NCBI RefSeq assembly: GCF_009451885.1
Contig: NZ_WIAO01000001.1
Location: 248,001-312,000, forward strand
Reading direction: 5' to 3'
Origin: Glycomyces albidus
GTDB taxonomy: Bacteria; Actinomycetota; Actinomycetes; Mycobacteriales; Micromonosporaceae
Length of the DNA stretch: 64,000 nt
In this document: positions 34,416-51,469 of the stretch, in pieces
Layout: every line of letters begins with the position of its first letter
Position numbering within the stretch: position 1 is the first letter of the stretch
Position numbers and translations under genes: made by a program
The notes under the pieces: model-generated
What the model was told of the DNA's origin: nothing
The model's input: only the letters and a program-made list of their open reading frames with translations
The model's database searches: none

Positions 34416-34801
34416 CGTCGTCTTCCTCTTGTGCGCTGCTTCTCGACCGGCCGGGAGGGGCGACCGGATCGAACGTCCACACCAGGCTTATATACCGATA
34501 AATCAATGTCAAGAGGTCACGGCCCGCATTCGCGCGGAAGCCACGCTCCGGACGAGGTGTTCACCTGCCGTGCGACACAACCCGTGACGGCAGCGGGCCA
34601 CCGGGGCTGACGGGGCCGGACTGGCGGGCGATGACCGCCGCCTGCGGGCGACGCGCCGGTCTGCGGAAGCGACCACCGGTCGTGATCGAAGGCGCCGTCC
34701 CGTGGTCGGCAGAACGCCGGAACGGTCCGCACGTCCAGGCCCTCCCGCGGAACCTGAACCAGGGCCCGACTGAGGCTCATGTCGCGGGCTATCGTGGCGG
34801 C
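34416..34801. other. Divergent intergenic region between esterase and LuxR-type regulator
   Basis: 386 bases without a convincing gene. An AT-rich island at 34485-34515 reads on the minus strand TTGACA (34512-34507), TTGATTTATCGG, then TATATAAG, and probably holds the esterase promoter. The boxes are not ideally spaced. No clear operator was seen. Confidence 0.45.
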
Positions 34802-37660
34802 ATGTCGCTGGTGGGAAGAGACGACGAGCTGAGGCGGATCGAACGACTGCTGGCGGAAGCGCGCGCCGAGCGCGGTGGAGCGCTGGTGGTGCGGGGAGAG
34901 GCGGGCGTCGGGAAGTCGGTCCTGCTCGACCGCGCGGTGTCGGTGGCGAAATCCGAAGGCTTCCAAGTGGTTCGCGGCATCGGGGTCGAATCCGACTCCG
35001 AGCTGGCGTACGGGGGCCTGCATCAGCTGTTGTTTCCGCATCTGGACCGGTTGAAGACGCTGCCGGAGCCGCAGGCCGCGGCATTGCGCGGTGCCTTCGG
35101 GCTGGCCGAAAACGGTGAGCCGAGCCGGTTCCTGATCTCCGCCGGCACCTTGGCGCTCCTGGCGGACATTGCCGAGGAGGCCCCGCTGCTCTGCGTCGTC
35201 GACGACCTCCAGTGGTTCGACCAGGGCTCTGCGGAAGCGCTGCTCTTCGCCGCTCGCCGCTTCGGAGCCGACCCGGTCGCGATGCTGTTCGCGGTGCGCG
35301 AGACGTCGATGCCGTTCGAGACTCCCGGTGTCGAGGTGTTGCCGCTGTCCGGCCTCGCGGCGAGCGACGCCGCCCGGGTACTCGACGAGCATGCTCCGGA
35401 CCTCGCCGACCCGTTGCGGGCCCGCGTGCTCGAGGAGTCGGGCGGCAACCCGCTTGCGATCATCGAGCTCGGATCGATCCGACGCCGGACCGATGAGATC
35501 GACTTGTCCGACCTGGCCGGAACGGTCGGCACACTGCCGGTTCCCGCCCGCGTCCAAGAACTGTTCCGCCGCCAGATCGCCGAGCTTCCCGACGCGACGC
35601 GACGAGCGCTCCTGGCCGCCGCGGCCGACTCCACGGCGCCGGTCGAGACGGTCCTGCACGTGGTCGAAGCCCTCGGCGGTGCCGCCGCCGACCTGGAACC
35701 CGCCGAGCGCGCCACCTTGGTCTGCATCGGGACGCGCGTCGTGTTCCGGCATCCGCTGGTGCGGGCGGCCGCCTACCGGGGCGAGCCGCTGCATCGACGG
35801 GTCGAGGTGCACCGGGCGTACGCCGACGCGCTGATGGACGACACGGACGCCGACCGCCGCGCTTGGCACCTCGCCGCTGCCGCAACCGCTCCCGACGAGA
35901 CGGTGGCGGTCGAACTCGAAGGCGCCGCCGAACGCGCCCGGCACCGCGGCGGCGCGATGGCGGTGTCCCTCGCCTACGAGCGTGCCGGCCGACTCAGCGT
36001 GGACGCCAAGCTGAAAGCCCGGCGGATCGCCAGGGCCGCCCAGGCCGCGTTCGACGCGGGCAAGCCCGACCGAGCCGCTCGGCTGGCGGCCGAAGCGCTG
36101 TCGCTGACCGCCGACCCGGACATCCGAGCCGAGGCCATCTACGCCCAAGGCGCCGTGGCCTACGAGCGGACCTCGCCGCGGACCGACGCGGAGCTGACGA
36201 TCGAAGCCGGCGCCCTGGTGCGCGACACCAACCCCGAGCATGCCGCGCTCACGCTCTACGAAGCCGTGCACGCCGCCAGGCACGGGGCGGCCCACGACCT
36301 CCTCCAACGCGCCGCGGACCTGTTGCGCGAGTTCACGCCGCCCCCGCACTGGGCCGCCGTGGTCGCCGCGCTGCTCGCTTGGGAGGACCTGTTCTCCGGA
36401 CACCCGAAGCCGGCCGTCGGCCCGATGCGCGAACTTCTCGACGCCGCACCGGCTGGCGACCTCGACCTGACGCACCAGATGACCGCGGGCATCGGCGGCC
36501 TCCTGATCGCCGCCGACGACGAGGCCGTCACCGTATCCGAGGCCATGCTCGCCCACGTCCGGGCGACCGGGGCCCTGGGCTGGGTCCCCTACGTCCTCAA
36601 CATGCTCGCGGTGGCGCGGCTGCTCCGCGGCGAGTTCGCCGACGCCCGCGCGCATGTCGCGGAAGGCGCAGCCGTCAGTGCGGAGTTCGGCAACGCGACC
36701 GAGCAACTGGCCCACCGGTCGCTGGAGGTGTGGCTCCACGCCGTGTCGGGCGAGGAGTCCCGCTGCCGATACCTGGCCGCCGCAGTGCTTCCCGACGCTC
36801 AGAGCCGGCACCGGGTGAACGCGGAGATCGCGTCATGGGGCCTGGCGATGCTCGACCTCTCCGTCAAACGGTTCGAGACCGCCCTCGAGGCACTCGAGCA
36901 GGTCTGCCGCGGTCCCGCCCGCCGCGACGTGCTGATGCGCGCGGTGCCCGACCTGGTGGAGGCGGCCGTGCGCAGCGGCGCGCCGGACCGGGCGCGCGAA
37001 GCGCTGGCGGAGTTCACGCACTGGTCTGCGCAGGTCGACCGCCCGGTCACCACCGGGCTCGAGCTGCGCTGCCGCGCGCTCTTGGCCGATGGCGACGAGG
37101 CCGAAGCGCTCTACAGCGAGGCCGTGCGGCTCCATGCGCGCTGCGGCGGCCCGTACGACCACGCTCGCACCAGGCTGGTCTTCGGCGAATGGCTGCGTCG
37201 GCACCGCAGGCGCACGGAAGCCCGTGCCCACCTCGAGGCGGCTGCCGCGGGGTTCGAGCGCATCGGTGCGACCCTGTGGGCCGAACGCGCCCACGGCGAA
37301 CTCGCCGCCTTCGGCGGCGCCCGGACCGAGCATCGCGGCACCGGCCCCCTCGCCCTGCTCACCCCGCAGGAGCTGCAGGTCGTGCACCTGGCCGCTGCCG
37401 GGTACACCAACAAACAGATCGCCGCGCAGCTCTACCTCAGTCCTCGCACCGTCGGCCACCACACGACGCGATCACCTGGGCCAAGCAGGCCTCCAAGGCC
37501 CTGCGAAGCCGAGTCGAGGTCCGCGCCTTCCAAGAGGCGCCCCCCGCGTAAGCACCCGAAGCCTCGAACGGCTTCAGGCCGTGGACTTTCGCCCGGTTCG
37601 GGGATGACCTGGTCGTCGATGACCACGCAGCGTGCGGTCAAGAGGGTCTCGAAGTCTTGA
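34802..37660 (+). CDS. LuxR-family regulator of the large ATP-binding (LAL/MalT-like) type, 3' end frameshifted
   Basis: ATG 34802 opens MSLVGRDDELRRIERLL, the standard LAL start. Walker A is VVRGEAGVGKSVLLD (about 33), Walker B CVVDDLQWFD; helical repeats fill 350-840. The LuxR HTH begins at about 851 (LTPQELQVVHLAAAGYTNKQIAAQLYLSPRTVGHH), but directly afterwards the frame reads TTRSPGPSRPPRP and runs 60 odd residues to 37660. A neighbouring frame gives LRSRVEVRAFQEAPPA ending at 37551, which looks like the missing last HTH helix (SRxEL). So a frameshift or small rearrangement near 37460 has probably damaged the DNA-binding end. Confidence 0.85.
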   Translation: MSLVGRDDELRRIERLLAEARAERGGALVVRGEAGVGKSVLLDRAVSVAKSEGFQVVRGIGVESDSELAYGGLHQLLFPHLDRLKTLPEPQAAALRGAFGLAENGEPSRFLISAGTLALLADIAEEAPLLCVVDDLQWFDQGSAEALLFAARRFGADPVAMLFAVRETSMPFETPGVEVLPLSGLAASDAARVLDEHAPDLADPLRARVLEESGGNPLAIIELGSIRRRTDEIDLSDLAGTVGTLPVPARVQELFRRQIAELPDATRRALLAAAADSTAPVETVLHVVEALGGAAADLEPAERATLVCIGTRVVFRHPLVRAAAYRGEPLHRRVEVHRAYADALMDDTDADRRAWHLAAAATAPDETVAVELEGAAERARHRGGAMAVSLAYERAGRLSVDAKLKARRIARAAQAAFDAGKPDRAARLAAEALSLTADPDIRAEAIYAQGAVAYERTSPRTDAELTIEAGALVRDTNPEHAALTLYEAVHAARHGAAHDLLQRAADLLREFTPPPHWAAVVAALLAWEDLFSGHPKPAVGPMRELLDAAPAGDLDLTHQMTAGIGGLLIAADDEAVTVSEAMLAHVRATGALGWVPYVLNMLAVARLLRGEFADARAHVAEGAAVSAEFGNATEQLAHRSLEVWLHAVSGEESRCRYLAAAVLPDAQSRHRVNAEIASWGLAMLDLSVKRFETALEALEQVCRGPARRDVLMRAVPDLVEAAVRSGAPDRAREALAEFTHWSAQVDRPVTTGLELRCRALLADGDEAEALYSEAVRLHARCGGPYDHARTRLVFGEWLRRHRRRTEARAHLEAAAAGFERIGATLWAERAHGELAAFGGARTEHRGTGPLALLTPQELQVVHLAAAGYTNKQIAAQLYLSPRTVGHHTTRSPGPSRPPRPCEAESRSAPSKRRPPRKHPKPRTASGRGLSPGSGMTWSSMTTQRAVKRVSKS

Positions 37661-37731: not shown

Positions 37732-39045
37732 CTAGGCACGGCGAGCCACCACGGCCCGGAACCGCTTCGGCGCGGTGACCGCGCCCCACTGGCGTCGCGG
37801 CGCGCCCGGCCGCGTCGTGACCGTCCGGTCCGCGAGCAGGTCGGCGGCGGTCTCCAGCACCGCGTTCGAGATGTGGACTCCGGTGCAGATGCGCGGACCC
37901 GCGCCGTAGGGCAGGTACGCGTGCGGGTCGTGGACGTCAGAGGCGAGCCACCGCGCCGGATCGAACCGGCTCGGGTCCTCGCGCCACCAGCGCGGGTCCG
38001 TGTGGAGCAGGAGCGGACTGAGGAAGACCGAGTCGCCCGCCGGGACCGTGACGCCGCCGAACCCGGTGTCCTCCAAGAGGATTCGGCTGGTGAGCGTCAC
38101 CGCCGGATAGACCCGCAGGGTCTCCCGCACGACGGCCCGGTTCCAGTCCTCGCGGCCCACCTCCTCCGGCCGGGCGAGGTCGTGGGCGGCATGAGCGGTC
38201 AGCAGCCACGCCAGGCCGGTGCCGCCGACCGTGTACAGGTTCTCGAGATTGATCGAGAGCGACTGCGCGACTTCGAGGTCGGAGAACGCCGGCCGGTCGC
38301 CGTCGCGGGCGTCCAGGAGCAGATCGAGCAGGTCCGAGGGCGCCTCCTCGGCGTCCCGGATCGCGCGTCGCGCGCCGACGTGTGCGATGAGGGCCTCGAT
38401 CCACGCGTCGTTCGCGCGGCGGCGGCGGCGCGTCAGCGAGGACAGCCAGTCGGGAAGTTGGACCGAGGCCGAACCCGCTTGCAGAAGGAGGTCGCCTACG
38501 GCGACGAAGGCGTCCCGCAGGTCGCACTCCAGGTCACGGACGAAGATACCGCCGGCCGCGTCGAGTACGGCGTGCTCGCAGTCGGCGAGACGGATCGGCG
38601 ATCGCCCGGGGGCGTCCAGGAATCGCTGGAGGGAACTGCGGATGACCGGTGCAGTCCGTTCGGCGACCTCGCGGCCGAGGCGATGCCACTGGGCGGTGCG
38701 CCTGGTGGCCATCCACGTCTCGACGCGATCGCGCAGGAGCGGTCGCTCCGCGATCTTCTCGGGCGGTGTCGGCGCGTCGACCCGGGTCTCGCGGTTGGTG
38801 CGGGCCAGCGCCCAGTGGACCCATGCGGGGTGGGCGAGCACGACCTTGCCCGGTGCGAAGGCGAACACGTCGCCGTATTCGTTCCGCAACCGCTTGAGGC
38901 ATGCGATCGGGTCGCGGTCGAAGTCGTCGGGGGGAAGGCCCAACGGCCGCCGTGCCGGTCCTGGGAGAGGTACGGCCGAATCCCGTGAATCAGCTTTGCT
39001 CAGGGGAGTCGGACGAATGTCGGCACTGCGACCGTTGGGATTCAT
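37732..39045 (-). CDS. Cytochrome P450, candidate RiPP-modifying (atropopeptide-type) enzyme
   Basis: 437 residues, soluble. K-helix ExxR in RETLRVYP (about 307), PERF-like DPSRFDPARWLA, heme loop YLPYGAGPRICTG (Cys about 384). The I-helix reads YTVGGTGLAWLL, without the common acid-Thr pair, which occurs in P450s that couple aromatic rings rather than hydroxylate. It starts two bases after the stop of a 29-residue peptide gene with an aromatic C-terminus. In tryptorubin-type clusters a single P450 makes C-C and C-N cross-links on such a peptide, so that is the proposed role here. No ferredoxin or reductase gene is nearby; partners must come from elsewhere. Confidence 0.9.
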   Translation of the reverse strand: MNPNGRSADIRPTPLSKADSRDSAVPLPGPARRPLGLPPDDFDRDPIACLKRLRNEYGDVFAFAPGKVVLAHPAWVHWALARTNRETRVDAPTPPEKIAERPLLRDRVETWMATRRTAQWHRLGREVAERTAPVIRSSLQRFLDAPGRSPIRLADCEHAVLDAAGGIFVRDLECDLRDAFVAVGDLLLQAGSASVQLPDWLSSLTRRRRRANDAWIEALIAHVGARRAIRDAEEAPSDLLDLLLDARDGDRPAFSDLEVAQSLSINLENLYTVGGTGLAWLLTAHAAHDLARPEEVGREDWNRAVVRETLRVYPAVTLTSRILLEDTGFGGVTVPAGDSVFLSPLLLHTDPRWWREDPSRFDPARWLASDVHDPHAYLPYGAGPRICTGVHISNAVLETAADLLADRTVTTRPGAPRRQWGAVTAPKRFRAVVARRA

Positions 39046-39047
39046 CT

Positions 39048-39137
39048 TTAGAGCCAGTAGTGCCAGGCGTACCAGCCGCGGGTGCCCTGCTTGCCTCCGA
39101 CGGCGCGTACGGCGGCTGCCTTGACGAGACTGCGCAT
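39048..39137 (-). CDS. RiPP precursor peptide, atropopeptide (tryptorubin)-like; candidate core AWHYWL
   Basis: 29 codons from ATG 39137 with GGAGG four bases upstream; stop TAA is two bases before the P450 ATG. The N-terminal part is a small basic helix (starts MRSLVKAAAVRAV, no acidic residue); the C-terminus is GWYAWHYWL. Tryptorubin A is the cross-linked hexapeptide AWYIWY; the last six residues here, AWHYWL, align with Ala-1, Trp-2 and Trp-5 in place. Length, aromatic C-terminal core, absence of any follower and coupling to one P450 all fit the atropopeptide class. The gene is too short for routine gene callers. Core length (six versus eight or nine residues) and cross-links are inference. 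Confidence 0.8.
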   Translation of the reverse strand: MRSLVKAAAVRAVGGKQGTRGWYAWHYWL

Positions 39138-39404
39138 GTGTCCTCCATTCATCCGGGCGACTAGAAGCCGCTTCGAGATTCGTGCGTCGAGTAGATCAGC
39201 CGGCGGCTGCGGAATCGAGGCGGAGAACCGGCGGGAAGGCGGCAGGAATCGCGCCGGAGAGCCGGCTGTGGCCGTTCATCCGCAAGACGATCCTGCGGTA
39301 CTTGCGCGGCTTGTAGCCGGCCGCCCGAGAGCGGCCGATGCGCCTGCGGTGCCGATCTCATGAACCTGTGCCAGGTGCCGGAGGGCCGGCCGCAAGCCTG
39401 TCGG
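39138..39404 (-). promoter_or_regulatory. Upstream region of the precursor-P450 operon
   Basis: Between the FAD gene's terminator and the precursor start. No convincing second gene; short open frames here (for example one from 39361) lack ribosome sites and family features. It must contain the promoter of the RiPP operon, but no good -35/-10 pair stood out. Confidence 0.35.
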
Positions 39405-39439: not shown

Positions 39440-40870
39440 TCAGAGGTGCAGCAGCGCTTCTCGGAAGGCCTGCACCGCTCGTGCGGCCTGGGCGGCGACT
39501 CCGGGGATGCTGGAGGTCAGGAACAGTCCGCCTGCGGCGAGGTCGCCGACGACGTGGAGCCGCGGGTCGGCCGCGTTCAGTCCGCCCTCCGGGCCCGTTG
39601 TCGCGAGGCCGGCCGCGAGGAGGGCCGCGACCAGCTCGGCGGCGCCGCTCGGCACCGACTGCGGCGCCGGGTTCACCGCGTTCAGGACCACGTCGGCGGA
39701 CGCCTCGCCGCCGCCGTGCCGAATGCGGAACCGCCCGCCCCGGTGCTCGATCCGTTCGAGCCCGGCGGTGACGGTGAGCTGCCCGGAGTCGAAGAGCCGC
39801 AGCATGGCGGCCGCGTTCACCGGCACCATGGGCGAGGCGATGCCCGTCGCCAGCCTGGCGATGCGCCGCACCCGGTCGCGGTCGGCCGCGGCGAGGTGCC
39901 GCCACGCGAGCGGGCCCGCCATGTGCGCGGCCTCCTGCAGGAACCTGCGGCCGATACGCGGGTCGTCGACCGCATCGAGCTGGGATCGCAAACGCTCCGC
40001 CGGGTCCTGCGACGGCGACGCCAGCAGATCCGACGCGAACGCGGAGAAGTCCTCGCCGGCCTCTGCGAGCTCCTTGCGCAGCAACCCGATCAGGTCGTCG
40101 ATCGTGACACCGCCGCGCTCGCGGGCCAGCGCGGCGACCCGCTCGCCCGTCATGTGCTGGGGACGCCGGTCGACCGGCCGCTGCCAGACGTGCGGGAGCG
40201 TCCCGCCGCGCGACAGCAGCCCGATGCGGCCGGTGTGGCCGCGGGCGGCCAGGGACACGACGATGTCCACGGCGGTGAGGCCGCTGCCGATGACGGCGAC
40301 GTCGGCGCTCGCGGGCACGGTGTCGAGCGTGCGGGCCAGCGGGTACGGATCGGCCGCGAATCCCGGTGCGCCCGTGAGCTTGTAGTGGTCGCGCGGGGTG
40401 CCTGCACCTACGCAGAGCACCACCCGGTCGGCACCGAACTCGCGCCCGTCCTCGGTCCGGACGGCCAGCCGGTCTCCGGCTCGCGCGATCGCGATGACGC
40501 GCGCGGCGACCGCCTCGACGGTGCCGCCGCGCTCGCGCAGCACGCGCGACGCCGCCTCCGCAGTGTCCACTAGGTACTGTCCGTACATCGCTCGTGGGAT
40601 CAGGGGCCGGTCGAGCCGCTCGTCGAGGTGGTCTCGTCCCCGCTCTCCCAGCCAGGCCGAGAAGTGCCCGAAGTCGCCGTGCCGGATCGACATGATGGCG
40701 GGCGGGGCGTTGACCAGGACCGAGTCGAGGTCCGGGCTGTAGGGCCGCCCCCGCCACAGGTGCGGGGACGGCTCGAACACCGTGATCGACGCCGTTCCTT
40801 CGGATTCGGCGGCCAATGCGTCCAGTACGCCGACCGCGGCGGCGCCTGCTCCGATGATGGCGATGTCCAT
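39440..40870 (-). CDS. FAD/NAD(P)-binding protein (FAD-dependent oxidoreductase of the NAD_binding_9 type)
   Basis: 476 residues, cytoplasmic. Rossmann motif at the start (MDIAIIGAGAAAVGVLDAL), a flavin-loop region PHLWRGRPYSPDLDSVLVNAPP, a second dinucleotide motif ADVAVIGSGLTAVDIVVSL, and the closing FAD motif LHVVGDLAAGG. Proteins of this type are often annotated as HI0933-like, lysine/ornithine N-monooxygenase-like or adenylate-forming helpers; the reaction is not known. Divergent from a LuxR regulator; upstream of the RiPP genes but separated by a terminator. A role in the RiPP pathway cannot be excluded. Confidence 0.8.
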   Translation of the reverse strand: MDIAIIGAGAAAVGVLDALAAESEGTASITVFEPSPHLWRGRPYSPDLDSVLVNAPPAIMSIRHGDFGHFSAWLGERGRDHLDERLDRPLIPRAMYGQYLVDTAEAASRVLRERGGTVEAVAARVIAIARAGDRLAVRTEDGREFGADRVVLCVGAGTPRDHYKLTGAPGFAADPYPLARTLDTVPASADVAVIGSGLTAVDIVVSLAARGHTGRIGLLSRGGTLPHVWQRPVDRRPQHMTGERVAALARERGGVTIDDLIGLLRKELAEAGEDFSAFASDLLASPSQDPAERLRSQLDAVDDPRIGRRFLQEAAHMAGPLAWRHLAAADRDRVRRIARLATGIASPMVPVNAAAMLRLFDSGQLTVTAGLERIEHRGGRFRIRHGGGEASADVVLNAVNPAPQSVPSGAAELVAALLAAGLATTGPEGGLNAADPRLHVVGDLAAGGLFLTSSIPGVAAQAARAVQAFREALLHL

Positions 40871-42870: not shown

Positions 42871-44061
42871 ATGAAACACCGCATCATCGTCCTCGGCGCG
42901 GGGTACGCCGGGGCGTTCTCCGCCGGCCGGCTCGCCCGCCAACTGCACCCGGACGACGTCGAGATCACCGTGGTCAACGCCGAACCCGACTTCGTCGAGC
43001 GGCTTCGCAACCACCAGGCGGCCGCGGGGCAGGAGCTTCCGCGCCGGCCGCTGTCGAAGGTGTTCGCGGGCACCGGGATCCGACTCAAGGTGGCGCGGGT
43101 GGCGAGGCTCGACCCCGACCGCCGGACCGTGCACGTCGAAGACAGCCTCGGCACCGACACGCTCGAGTACGACACGCTGCTGTACGCGCTCGGCAGCACG
43201 GTCGACGACCACGGTATCCCCGGCGTGCGCGAACACGCCCACCACGTCGCCACCCGGCCCGCCGCGCTTCGCCTGCGCGAGCGCCTGGACGAGCTCGGCG
43301 ACGGCGGGAGGGTGCTCGTCGTGGGCGGCAACCTGACCGGGATCGAGACCGCCACCGAGCTCGCCGAGTCCCGGCCCGGCCTGCGCATCGCACTCGCCAC
43401 CAGCGGCGAACTGGGAGGCTGGCTGGGCGACAAGGCACGTCGGCACCTCCTGCGGTCCTTCGAGCGGTTCGGCATCGAGGTGCACGAGCACGCCCCGATC
43501 GGTCGGGTCGAGGCGTCGGCGGCGATCGCGGCCGACGGCACGGTCTTCGACACGGACGTGACCGTGTGGGCCGCCGGATTCGCCGCTCATCCCATCGCGG
43601 CCGACAGCGGGCTCGCCGTCGAGGAGAACGGCCAGATCACCGTCGACCGCCGGATGCGGTCGGTCTCGCACCCGGAGGTCTTCGCCGTCGGCGACAGCGC
43701 GTTCGTCATCGCCGAGAACGGGAAGCCGCTCCCGATGTCGTGCGCCTCGGCCGGCCCGACCAGCAAGCAGGCCATCGCCGGGATCGTCGGCGGCCTCACC
43801 GGCCACGAGGTGTCGCTGACGAAGTTCCCGTACATCGGCAACCACATCAGCCTCGGCCGCAAGGACGCGATCTTCCAGCTCGTCGACGGCGACGCGCAGG
43901 CCAAGCCGGGCGCGATGCTGGGCGGCTCCGCCGCGCAGGTCAAGACGGCGATCCTCAAGACCGCCGCCTGGAGCGTCGCCCACCCGACCTCCGGCCTTCC
44001 CACCCGCAGGCACCGCAGCGCAACAGCCGAGGACAGGACGGTGCGGACCCTTGCCGCATAA
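42871..44061 (+). CDS. NAD(P)/FAD-dependent oxidoreductase (NDH-2-like)
   Basis: 396 residues. FAD motif at the start (HRIIVLGAGYAGAFSAGRLA), ATG motif YDTLLYALGST, NAD motif GGRVLVVGGNLTGIETATELAE, and closing FAD motif EVFAVGDSAF. The order is that of type II NADH dehydrogenases and related disulfide-oxidoreductase-fold enzymes. No C-terminal membrane helix is obvious, so it is probably soluble or peripheral. AGGAG ribosome site. A possible ECF41 promoter lies upstream and an AraC gene follows. Confidence 0.88.
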   Translation: MKHRIIVLGAGYAGAFSAGRLARQLHPDDVEITVVNAEPDFVERLRNHQAAAGQELPRRPLSKVFAGTGIRLKVARVARLDPDRRTVHVEDSLGTDTLEYDTLLYALGSTVDDHGIPGVREHAHHVATRPAALRLRERLDELGDGGRVLVVGGNLTGIETATELAESRPGLRIALATSGELGGWLGDKARRHLLRSFERFGIEVHEHAPIGRVEASAAIAADGTVFDTDVTVWAAGFAAHPIAADSGLAVEENGQITVDRRMRSVSHPEVFAVGDSAFVIAENGKPLPMSCASAGPTSKQAIAGIVGGLTGHEVSLTKFPYIGNHISLGRKDAIFQLVDGDAQAKPGAMLGGSAAQVKTAILKTAAWSVAHPTSGLPTRRHRSATAEDRTVRTLAA

Positions 44062-51317: not shown

Positions 51318-51469
51318 GCGGTTTCCTCGATCTATGGGTTGGCTTCGCCGCCTCCGCCCGCCGTGCCGTCGGCGGTCCTGGCGGCTCCGCGGAGAAGTAT
51401 CGGCGAACCCGGCTTCAGATCGGCTTCACCGTCGCCGGAGCCATCGCCCCGCGGGACTAAGATGGCGAC

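Follow-up and report, generated by a model that had tools for sequence, protein, structure and literature searches.

A small gene and a cytochrome P450 gene lie almost end to end in the genome of Glycomyces albidus. Which peptide the pair makes, and by which bond, is the question raised by the locus. The window, that is the whole stretch of DNA analysed, spans 64,000 nucleotides, and an earlier note on it had read the pair as an atropopeptide-type cluster. The reading favoured here, to which a probability of roughly 0.6 is given on sequence grounds, is that Glycomyces carries, in a patchy distribution, a minimal RiPP cassette of two genes, whose P450 would join two tyrosines in i,i+4 spacing and thus close a five-residue ring.

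The gene pair and its conservation in Glycomyces

The pair comprises the following features.

39048..39137, minus strand: RiPP precursor gene, 29 codons plus stop, product MRSLVKAAAVRAVGGKQGTRGWYAWHYWL, with a counterpart in 9/9 homologous loci
37732..39045, minus strand: cytochrome P450 of 437 aa, proposed peptide cross-linking enzyme
39141..39146, minus strand: Shine-Dalgarno GGAGGA of the precursor gene

Only 2 nt lie between the precursor stop and the P450 start, and the 29-codon ORF with its ribosome site (GGAGGA, 39146..39141) is found as the earlier note had described it. The DNA pattern TGGTACGCNTGGCAYTAYTGG occurs a single time in the source genome (5.76 Mb). An alternative in-frame start would give an ORF of 34 codons, and the Shine-Dalgarno sequence falls within that longer frame; the start yielding 27-29 aa is favoured, because a GGAG-type site precedes it in all nine loci.

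Homologous P450s (67-100% identity) have been identified at nine loci, the window's own included, in 8 of 22 Glycomyces genomes, among which those of G. terrestris, G. buryatensis, G. algeriensis, G. amatae and strains YM15 and L485. The G. algeriensis genome hosts two cassettes, L004 and L011, of differing subtypes (DYRLPYPK and WYVAYYTD). A tenth Glycomyces match, L010, is only 35% identical, represents a different type, and stands outside the nine. The search for short ORFs upstream of homologous P450s that the earlier note had proposed returned an ORF of 27-29 aa at 9/9 loci, each with a Shine-Dalgarno sequence; the spacing to the P450 is exactly 2 nt in eight loci, and the two genes overlap in one. 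Among 20000 random window positions, 11 had an ORF of 24-32 codons, preceded by a Shine-Dalgarno sequence, that ended 0-3 nt ahead of them; the occurrence of such an ORF at nine of nine homologous loci thus exceeds chance, and the pairing of a RiPP precursor with a P450 is supported. The locus is a small enzyme-peptide cassette, in which the P450 probably staples the 29-residue peptide into a ring.

Window ORFs of at least 100 codons, from ~24 to 52 kb, were compared by tblastn (>90 bits) with seven named loci of ~13 kb each. Apart from the P450 frame and ORFs antisense to it, no neighbouring gene was shared at a corresponding place in any of the seven; the sole other match, of the window ORF at 51461 (36%), lies at a non-corresponding place in L015. 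The pair therefore forms a RiPP cassette of two genes on its own, and plausibly moves as a unit. Plasmid-borne relatives were not found at E 1e-20.

The precursor genes of the window species and G. terrestris are identical over 90/90 nt, against 1221/1308 nt for the P450 gene and 170/243 nt for the upstream region. Since 1.9% of the 90-nt windows within the P450 gene are equally identical between the two species, the identity of the precursor is remarkable only in comparison with the upstream region.

An invariant pair of tyrosines in the core

The core was delimited by aligning eight distinct Glycomyces precursors and that of L044, a locus from another actinomycete family.

39051..39077, minus strand: probable core region GWYAWHYWL
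39071..39069, minus strand: invariant precursor Tyr23
39059..39057, minus strand: invariant precursor Tyr27

The nine C-terminal residues are GWYAWHYWL both in the window and in G. terrestris, and RWYVAYYTD, RWYVAYYTE, SWYSLYYME, HYYRLHYPE, ADYRLPYPK, ASYPLPYPK and ANYRLPYAQ in the other precursors. Just two of the nine columns, -7 and -3, do not vary, and both are Tyr (8/8); the remaining seven hold from three to five different residues each. Within-sequence permutations of seven of the eight cores gave two all-Tyr columns in 0 of 100000 cases, a figure that ignores the kinship of the sequences. In turn, column -5 reads W/A/A/L/L/L/L/L and column -2 W/T/T/M/P/P/P/A. The Trp residues at positions 2 and 5 of AWHYWL, which the earlier note had regarded as kept, are thus found together in one of eight distinct precursors, that of the window and G. 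terrestris. At core position 2, Trp occurs in 0 of the other seven, and is not a trait of the family.

Position -4 is occupied by His, Tyr or Pro. In three precursors, all with Pro at -4 and among them those of G. buryatensis and of the G. algeriensis DYRLPYPK type, the two Tyr are the sole aromatic residues of the core, and a P450 joining core aromatic side chains must, in these peptides, join this pair. The leaders of these three simplest precursors hold one Tyr or two Phe, which could in principle offer partners other than the core Tyr. Judging from this alignment, the P450 may bond the conserved Tyr pair across i,i+4; the invariant Tyr could instead serve in recognition. The idea that the bonds differ from those of tryptorubin, which the earlier note had argued from the residues replaced in the window core, still stands; the argument now rests on the conserved Tyr-Tyr pair. 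The core His, to which the note had also drawn attention, is no special feature, as 2 of 14 genuine atropopeptide loci have AWYHWY cores. In the P450 tree, the nearest relatives of the window and G. terrestris enzymes come from three species with cores of the YRLPY or YPLPY type, with moderate support (91/79 and 91/86).

Relatives outside the genus

The P450 of L044 is 29-33% identical to that of the window. Its precursor, of 26 aa, ends in KYYIRMYPV, with Tyr at -7 and -3 and Pro at -2, and is coupled to the P450 by an overlapping GTGTGA. In a P450 tree built without use of the precursors, L044 joins the Glycomyces enzymes with support of 100/99, a grouping to which the long-branch warning issued by the program applies. 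When 186 genomes related to that of L044 were searched (E 1e-35), no second L044-like locus outside Glycomyces was found.

A wider set of actinomycete P450s is about 29-37% identical to the window enzyme. Of 23 such loci, L044 included, 21 have a precursor-like ORF upstream of the P450, picked by eye from a filtered set. Many of the cores read YxYW, as RYPYWFYNY, and four read YxW (RYPWRH, RYVWYH, RYIWIP and RYHWAT). These YxW/YxYW loci are plausibly relatives inside the cyptide superfamily. Tyr-x-x-x-Tyr occurs within the last ten residues of 4 of the 21 precursors, and at -7/-3 in L044 alone; near the C-terminus of such Tyr-rich peptides the spacing is not rare.

Very short, rich in aromatic residues, directly upstream of the P450 and coupled to it, the small ORF might be taken for a regulatory leader peptide, working by attenuation or translational control, next to a P450 that acts on something else. 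Such a role is highly improbable. The gap of just 2 nt in eight of nine loci leaves no room for an attenuator, the core aromatics (W, Y, F, H) vary from two to six per precursor while two exact Tyr positions stay, and a precursor-like ORF is kept by relatives in other genera.

Two kinds of precursor met in these searches are set apart by their sequence. At L010, in genome G004, the ORF upstream of the P450 encodes MKIINRILRRKSQRMAGRNQWPPEHFYG, with an unfamiliar core. L023 and L025 carry odd precursors ending in TWYYYPIY and SGAYLYVPKICR, of which the second contains a Cys, and their P450s group together in the tree.

The P450 enzyme

The window P450 matches Pfam PF00067 with 105 bits and is intact, with the ExxR motif ETLR and the haem Cys loop YGAGPRICTG. 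At the place of the I-helix acid-Thr pair it reads Tyr-Thr-Val-Gly-Gly. The earlier note was right in reporting the loss of this pair, but the loss is common to all 41 RiPP P450s aligned (9/9 from Glycomyces, 18/18 related, 14/14 from atropopeptide loci), and is therefore a mark of the group rather than a peculiarity of the window enzyme. The L044 P450 keeps Thr-Thr and has Gln in place of the acid; the pair, as ETT, is present in 3/3 alignable ordinary P450s of the source genome. The haem loop carries Tyr in 10/10 enzymes of Glycomyces and L044, against Phe in 17 other related P450s.

An AlphaFold2 model has the P450 fold with a pLDDT of 81.2, obtained with 26 sequences as input; with nine close sequences the value was 51. 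Searched by fold and by sequence, the PDB gave ordinary P450s among the matches listed (7wzl, CYP170A1, CYP3A4, CYP51); no biarylitide P450 was among them, which excludes nothing.

Comparison with atropopeptides

Could the pair nonetheless be a true atropopeptide cluster, with a P450 that links Trp-2 to Trp-5 within the hexapeptide AWHYWL? A small precursor does adjoin a P450, and the window core has Trp at position 2 and fits the pattern xWxxWx, alone in its family. As defined in PMC11450843, atropopeptides are recognised by a class-defining P450, a KSLK motif in the leader and Trp at core position 2. A yardstick was obtained by searching 394 genomes for AWYIWY, which gave one locus; with the P450 of this locus as query, 14 loci turned up across 121 genomes of the same genus, presumably Streptomyces. 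What marks these P450s as references is thus the KSLK/AWYxW precursor rather than an accession. All 14 loci have a KSLK-xx-AWYxW precursor (13 distinct), with KSLK two residues ahead of the core. The six CoreFinder motifs, the KSLK type included, are absent from 8/8 Glycomyces precursors. Likewise, the tryptorubin precursor model NF038372 scores 58.5 bits (cut-off 33) on the genuine precursor of L045, and gave no match up to E 10 with four Glycomyces precursors.

The enzymes tell the same story. In the phylogeny with tryptorubin-type enzymes that the earlier note had called for, the P450s of the 14 atropopeptide loci cluster together, as a clade on a branch of length 3.74, and the window P450 falls outside it. 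A forced union of the Glycomyces and atropopeptide P450s is rejected (p-AU 0.0173), with long branches in play, and the backbone of the tree between groups is weak. By blastp, the window enzyme aligns with atropopeptide P450s in the C-terminal part only, with at most 63 bits. The assignment to atropopeptides is abandoned, the leader motif, the precursor model, the position of the P450 and the lack of conserved Trp all speaking against it; a Trp-2/Trp-5 link of this kind is very unlikely.

Proposed route to the peptide

According to the favoured reading, a single transcript would yield a precursor of 27-29 residues and a translationally coupled P450. The leader, of the form M-x-[SA]-L-x-[KR]-A ... 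G-G-[KST], would recruit the enzyme, which would oxidatively join the two Tyr of the C-terminal Tyr-x-x-[His/Tyr/Pro]-Tyr through a C-C or C-O bond, with loss of two hydrogens. A five-residue ring would result, and a general protease would plausibly release the peptide. Additional links may be permitted in the window species by its extra Trp at -8, -5 and -2 and its His at -4.

A P450-modified RiPP need not contain such a ring. The Tyr residues might be bonded otherwise, to the backbone, to a beta carbon or to the His/Tyr at -4, or might be merely oxidised. Known RiPP P450s make C-C, C-N, C-O and backbone links, according to PMC11450843 and PMC13192836, and the residue at -4 is His, Tyr or Pro, which also speaks for this alternative. 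In the three precursors with Pro at -4, in contrast, the Tyr pair provides the simplest partners. This alternative is possible, though not the one preferred. A further-reaching proposal would combine the Tyr-Tyr ring with a new Tyr-x-x-x-Tyr RiPP class having its own promoter, in which the Trp and His residues of the window core have been recruited to give a polycyclic product, atropopeptide-like by convergence; it is tentative, and should be regarded as rather doubtful.

A conserved element upstream of the cassette

Three features were delimited ahead of the precursor gene.

39228..39247, minus strand: 11-bp direct repeat TCCTGCCGCCTTCCCGCCGG, putative conserved operator/promoter element, 110 nt upstream of the precursor ATG
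39227..39215, minus strand: possible third, weaker repeat unit, noted by eye
39187..39199, minus strand: conserved CTGATCTACTCGA block, a possible -10 region suggested by column conservation

The 11-bp direct repeat TCCYGCCGNNNTCCYGCCGG is found 107-111 nt before the precursor ATG in 9/9 cassettes, and is followed by a conserved CTGnTnnACT block. The TCCYGCCGNNNTCCYGCCGG pattern gives 53 sites, two of which overlap, in 16 of 22 Glycomyces genomes, against one for the reversed control. Only 6 of 30 such loci inspected are cassettes, and a regulon shared across the genus may include the cassette. The architecture of the repeat resembles that of OmpR/PhoB or SARP boxes.

By eye, other TCCYGCCGNNNTCCYGCCGG sites precede genes for lipoprotein-like, MarR-like and secreted-protein-like products. 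One copy of the repeat, at L071 (G007:C20:42226, minus strand), heads a decayed cassette: the upstream repeat and the Shine-Dalgarno sequence are kept, the precursor has been lost, and the P450 remnant consists of the C-terminal 60 residues only, devoid of the haem Cys.

Relation to known P450-modified peptides

The cassette is best explained as a separate family among P450-modified RiPPs, the cyptides of the literature (term as cited in PMC11450843); a short precursor with conserved core aromatics lies beside a P450 in 9/9 loci. Cyptide loci with YxW/YxYW cores share with it a short precursor upstream of a single P450, an aromatic core at the C-terminus, and an enzyme that lacks the acid-Thr pair and shows 29-34% identity over most of its length. 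They differ because in the window family the core Tyr lie at -7/-3, the enzymes form a clade of their own with L044, and the haem loop carries Tyr, in place of the Phe found there. Aminopyruvatide is akin in that ApyO crosslinks two Tyr (YLY) and needs an upstream Arg/Lys (PMC13192836). Yet the spacing is i,i+2 and the precursor has 66 aa; the ApyO model, NF050147, is the best NCBIfam model for the window P450, at 81.2 bits, and its cut-off of 525 is not reached. In biarylitides (P450Blt, BytO) a P450 again crosslinks aromatic side chains of a ribosomal peptide, but the precursor has five residues and is encoded by an 18-bp gene (PMC13417212), against 29 codons in the window. Cittilins, likened to the family by description only, are likewise ribosomal, Tyr-rich peptides with bridges made by P450s (PMC13192836). 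Atropopeptides such as tryptorubin A and scabrirubin also derive from a two-gene cluster, with a precursor of similarly small size (25-26 aa at the 14 reference loci) and a P450 lacking the acid-Thr pair; their enzymes, with the haem motif GY..FGH...CWG, belong to another lineage, KSLK is absent from the window family, and the Trp pair is not conserved in it. In cittilins, the Tyr spacing differs from that of the window family.

The literature searched gives no account of the Glycomyces Tyr-xxx-Tyr group; the one paper in it that brings Glycomyces together with P450s and RiPP precursor peptides concerns a thiopeptide, and the term YxxxY does not occur among the matches listed. The principal surveys of such P450-modified peptides (Nam 2023, He 2023, Hu/Ge) lie outside that literature, and the Glycomyces group may for this reason already be listed in them; PMC12299652 mentions 1057 clusters in 11 categories, and three novel families. 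The proposed five-residue ring is larger than the three- and four-residue P450 rings characterised in the literature searched, to the extent that its sources describe them, and, if real, an i,i+4 Tyr-Tyr ring would widen the ring sizes shown for this class of enzymes. It would also show a core drifting to resemble another family. The eight cores share one scaffold and contain from two to six aromatic residues (His counted); they form a natural series in which conservation suggests the likely bond partners, open to direct test.

Other genes near the cassette

Two FAD/NAD(P) oxidoreductase genes lie near the cassette, at window positions 39440..40870 (minus strand) and 42871..44061 (plus strand). 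The enzymes are possible redox helpers; tblastn did not find them in the seven other loci compared. On the other side, an AAA/LuxR-type regulator gene, at window positions 34631..37660 (plus strand), is convergent to the P450 gene. The HTH match of its product covers only positions 2-39 of a 57-position model, and a truncation or frameshift may affect the end of the gene.
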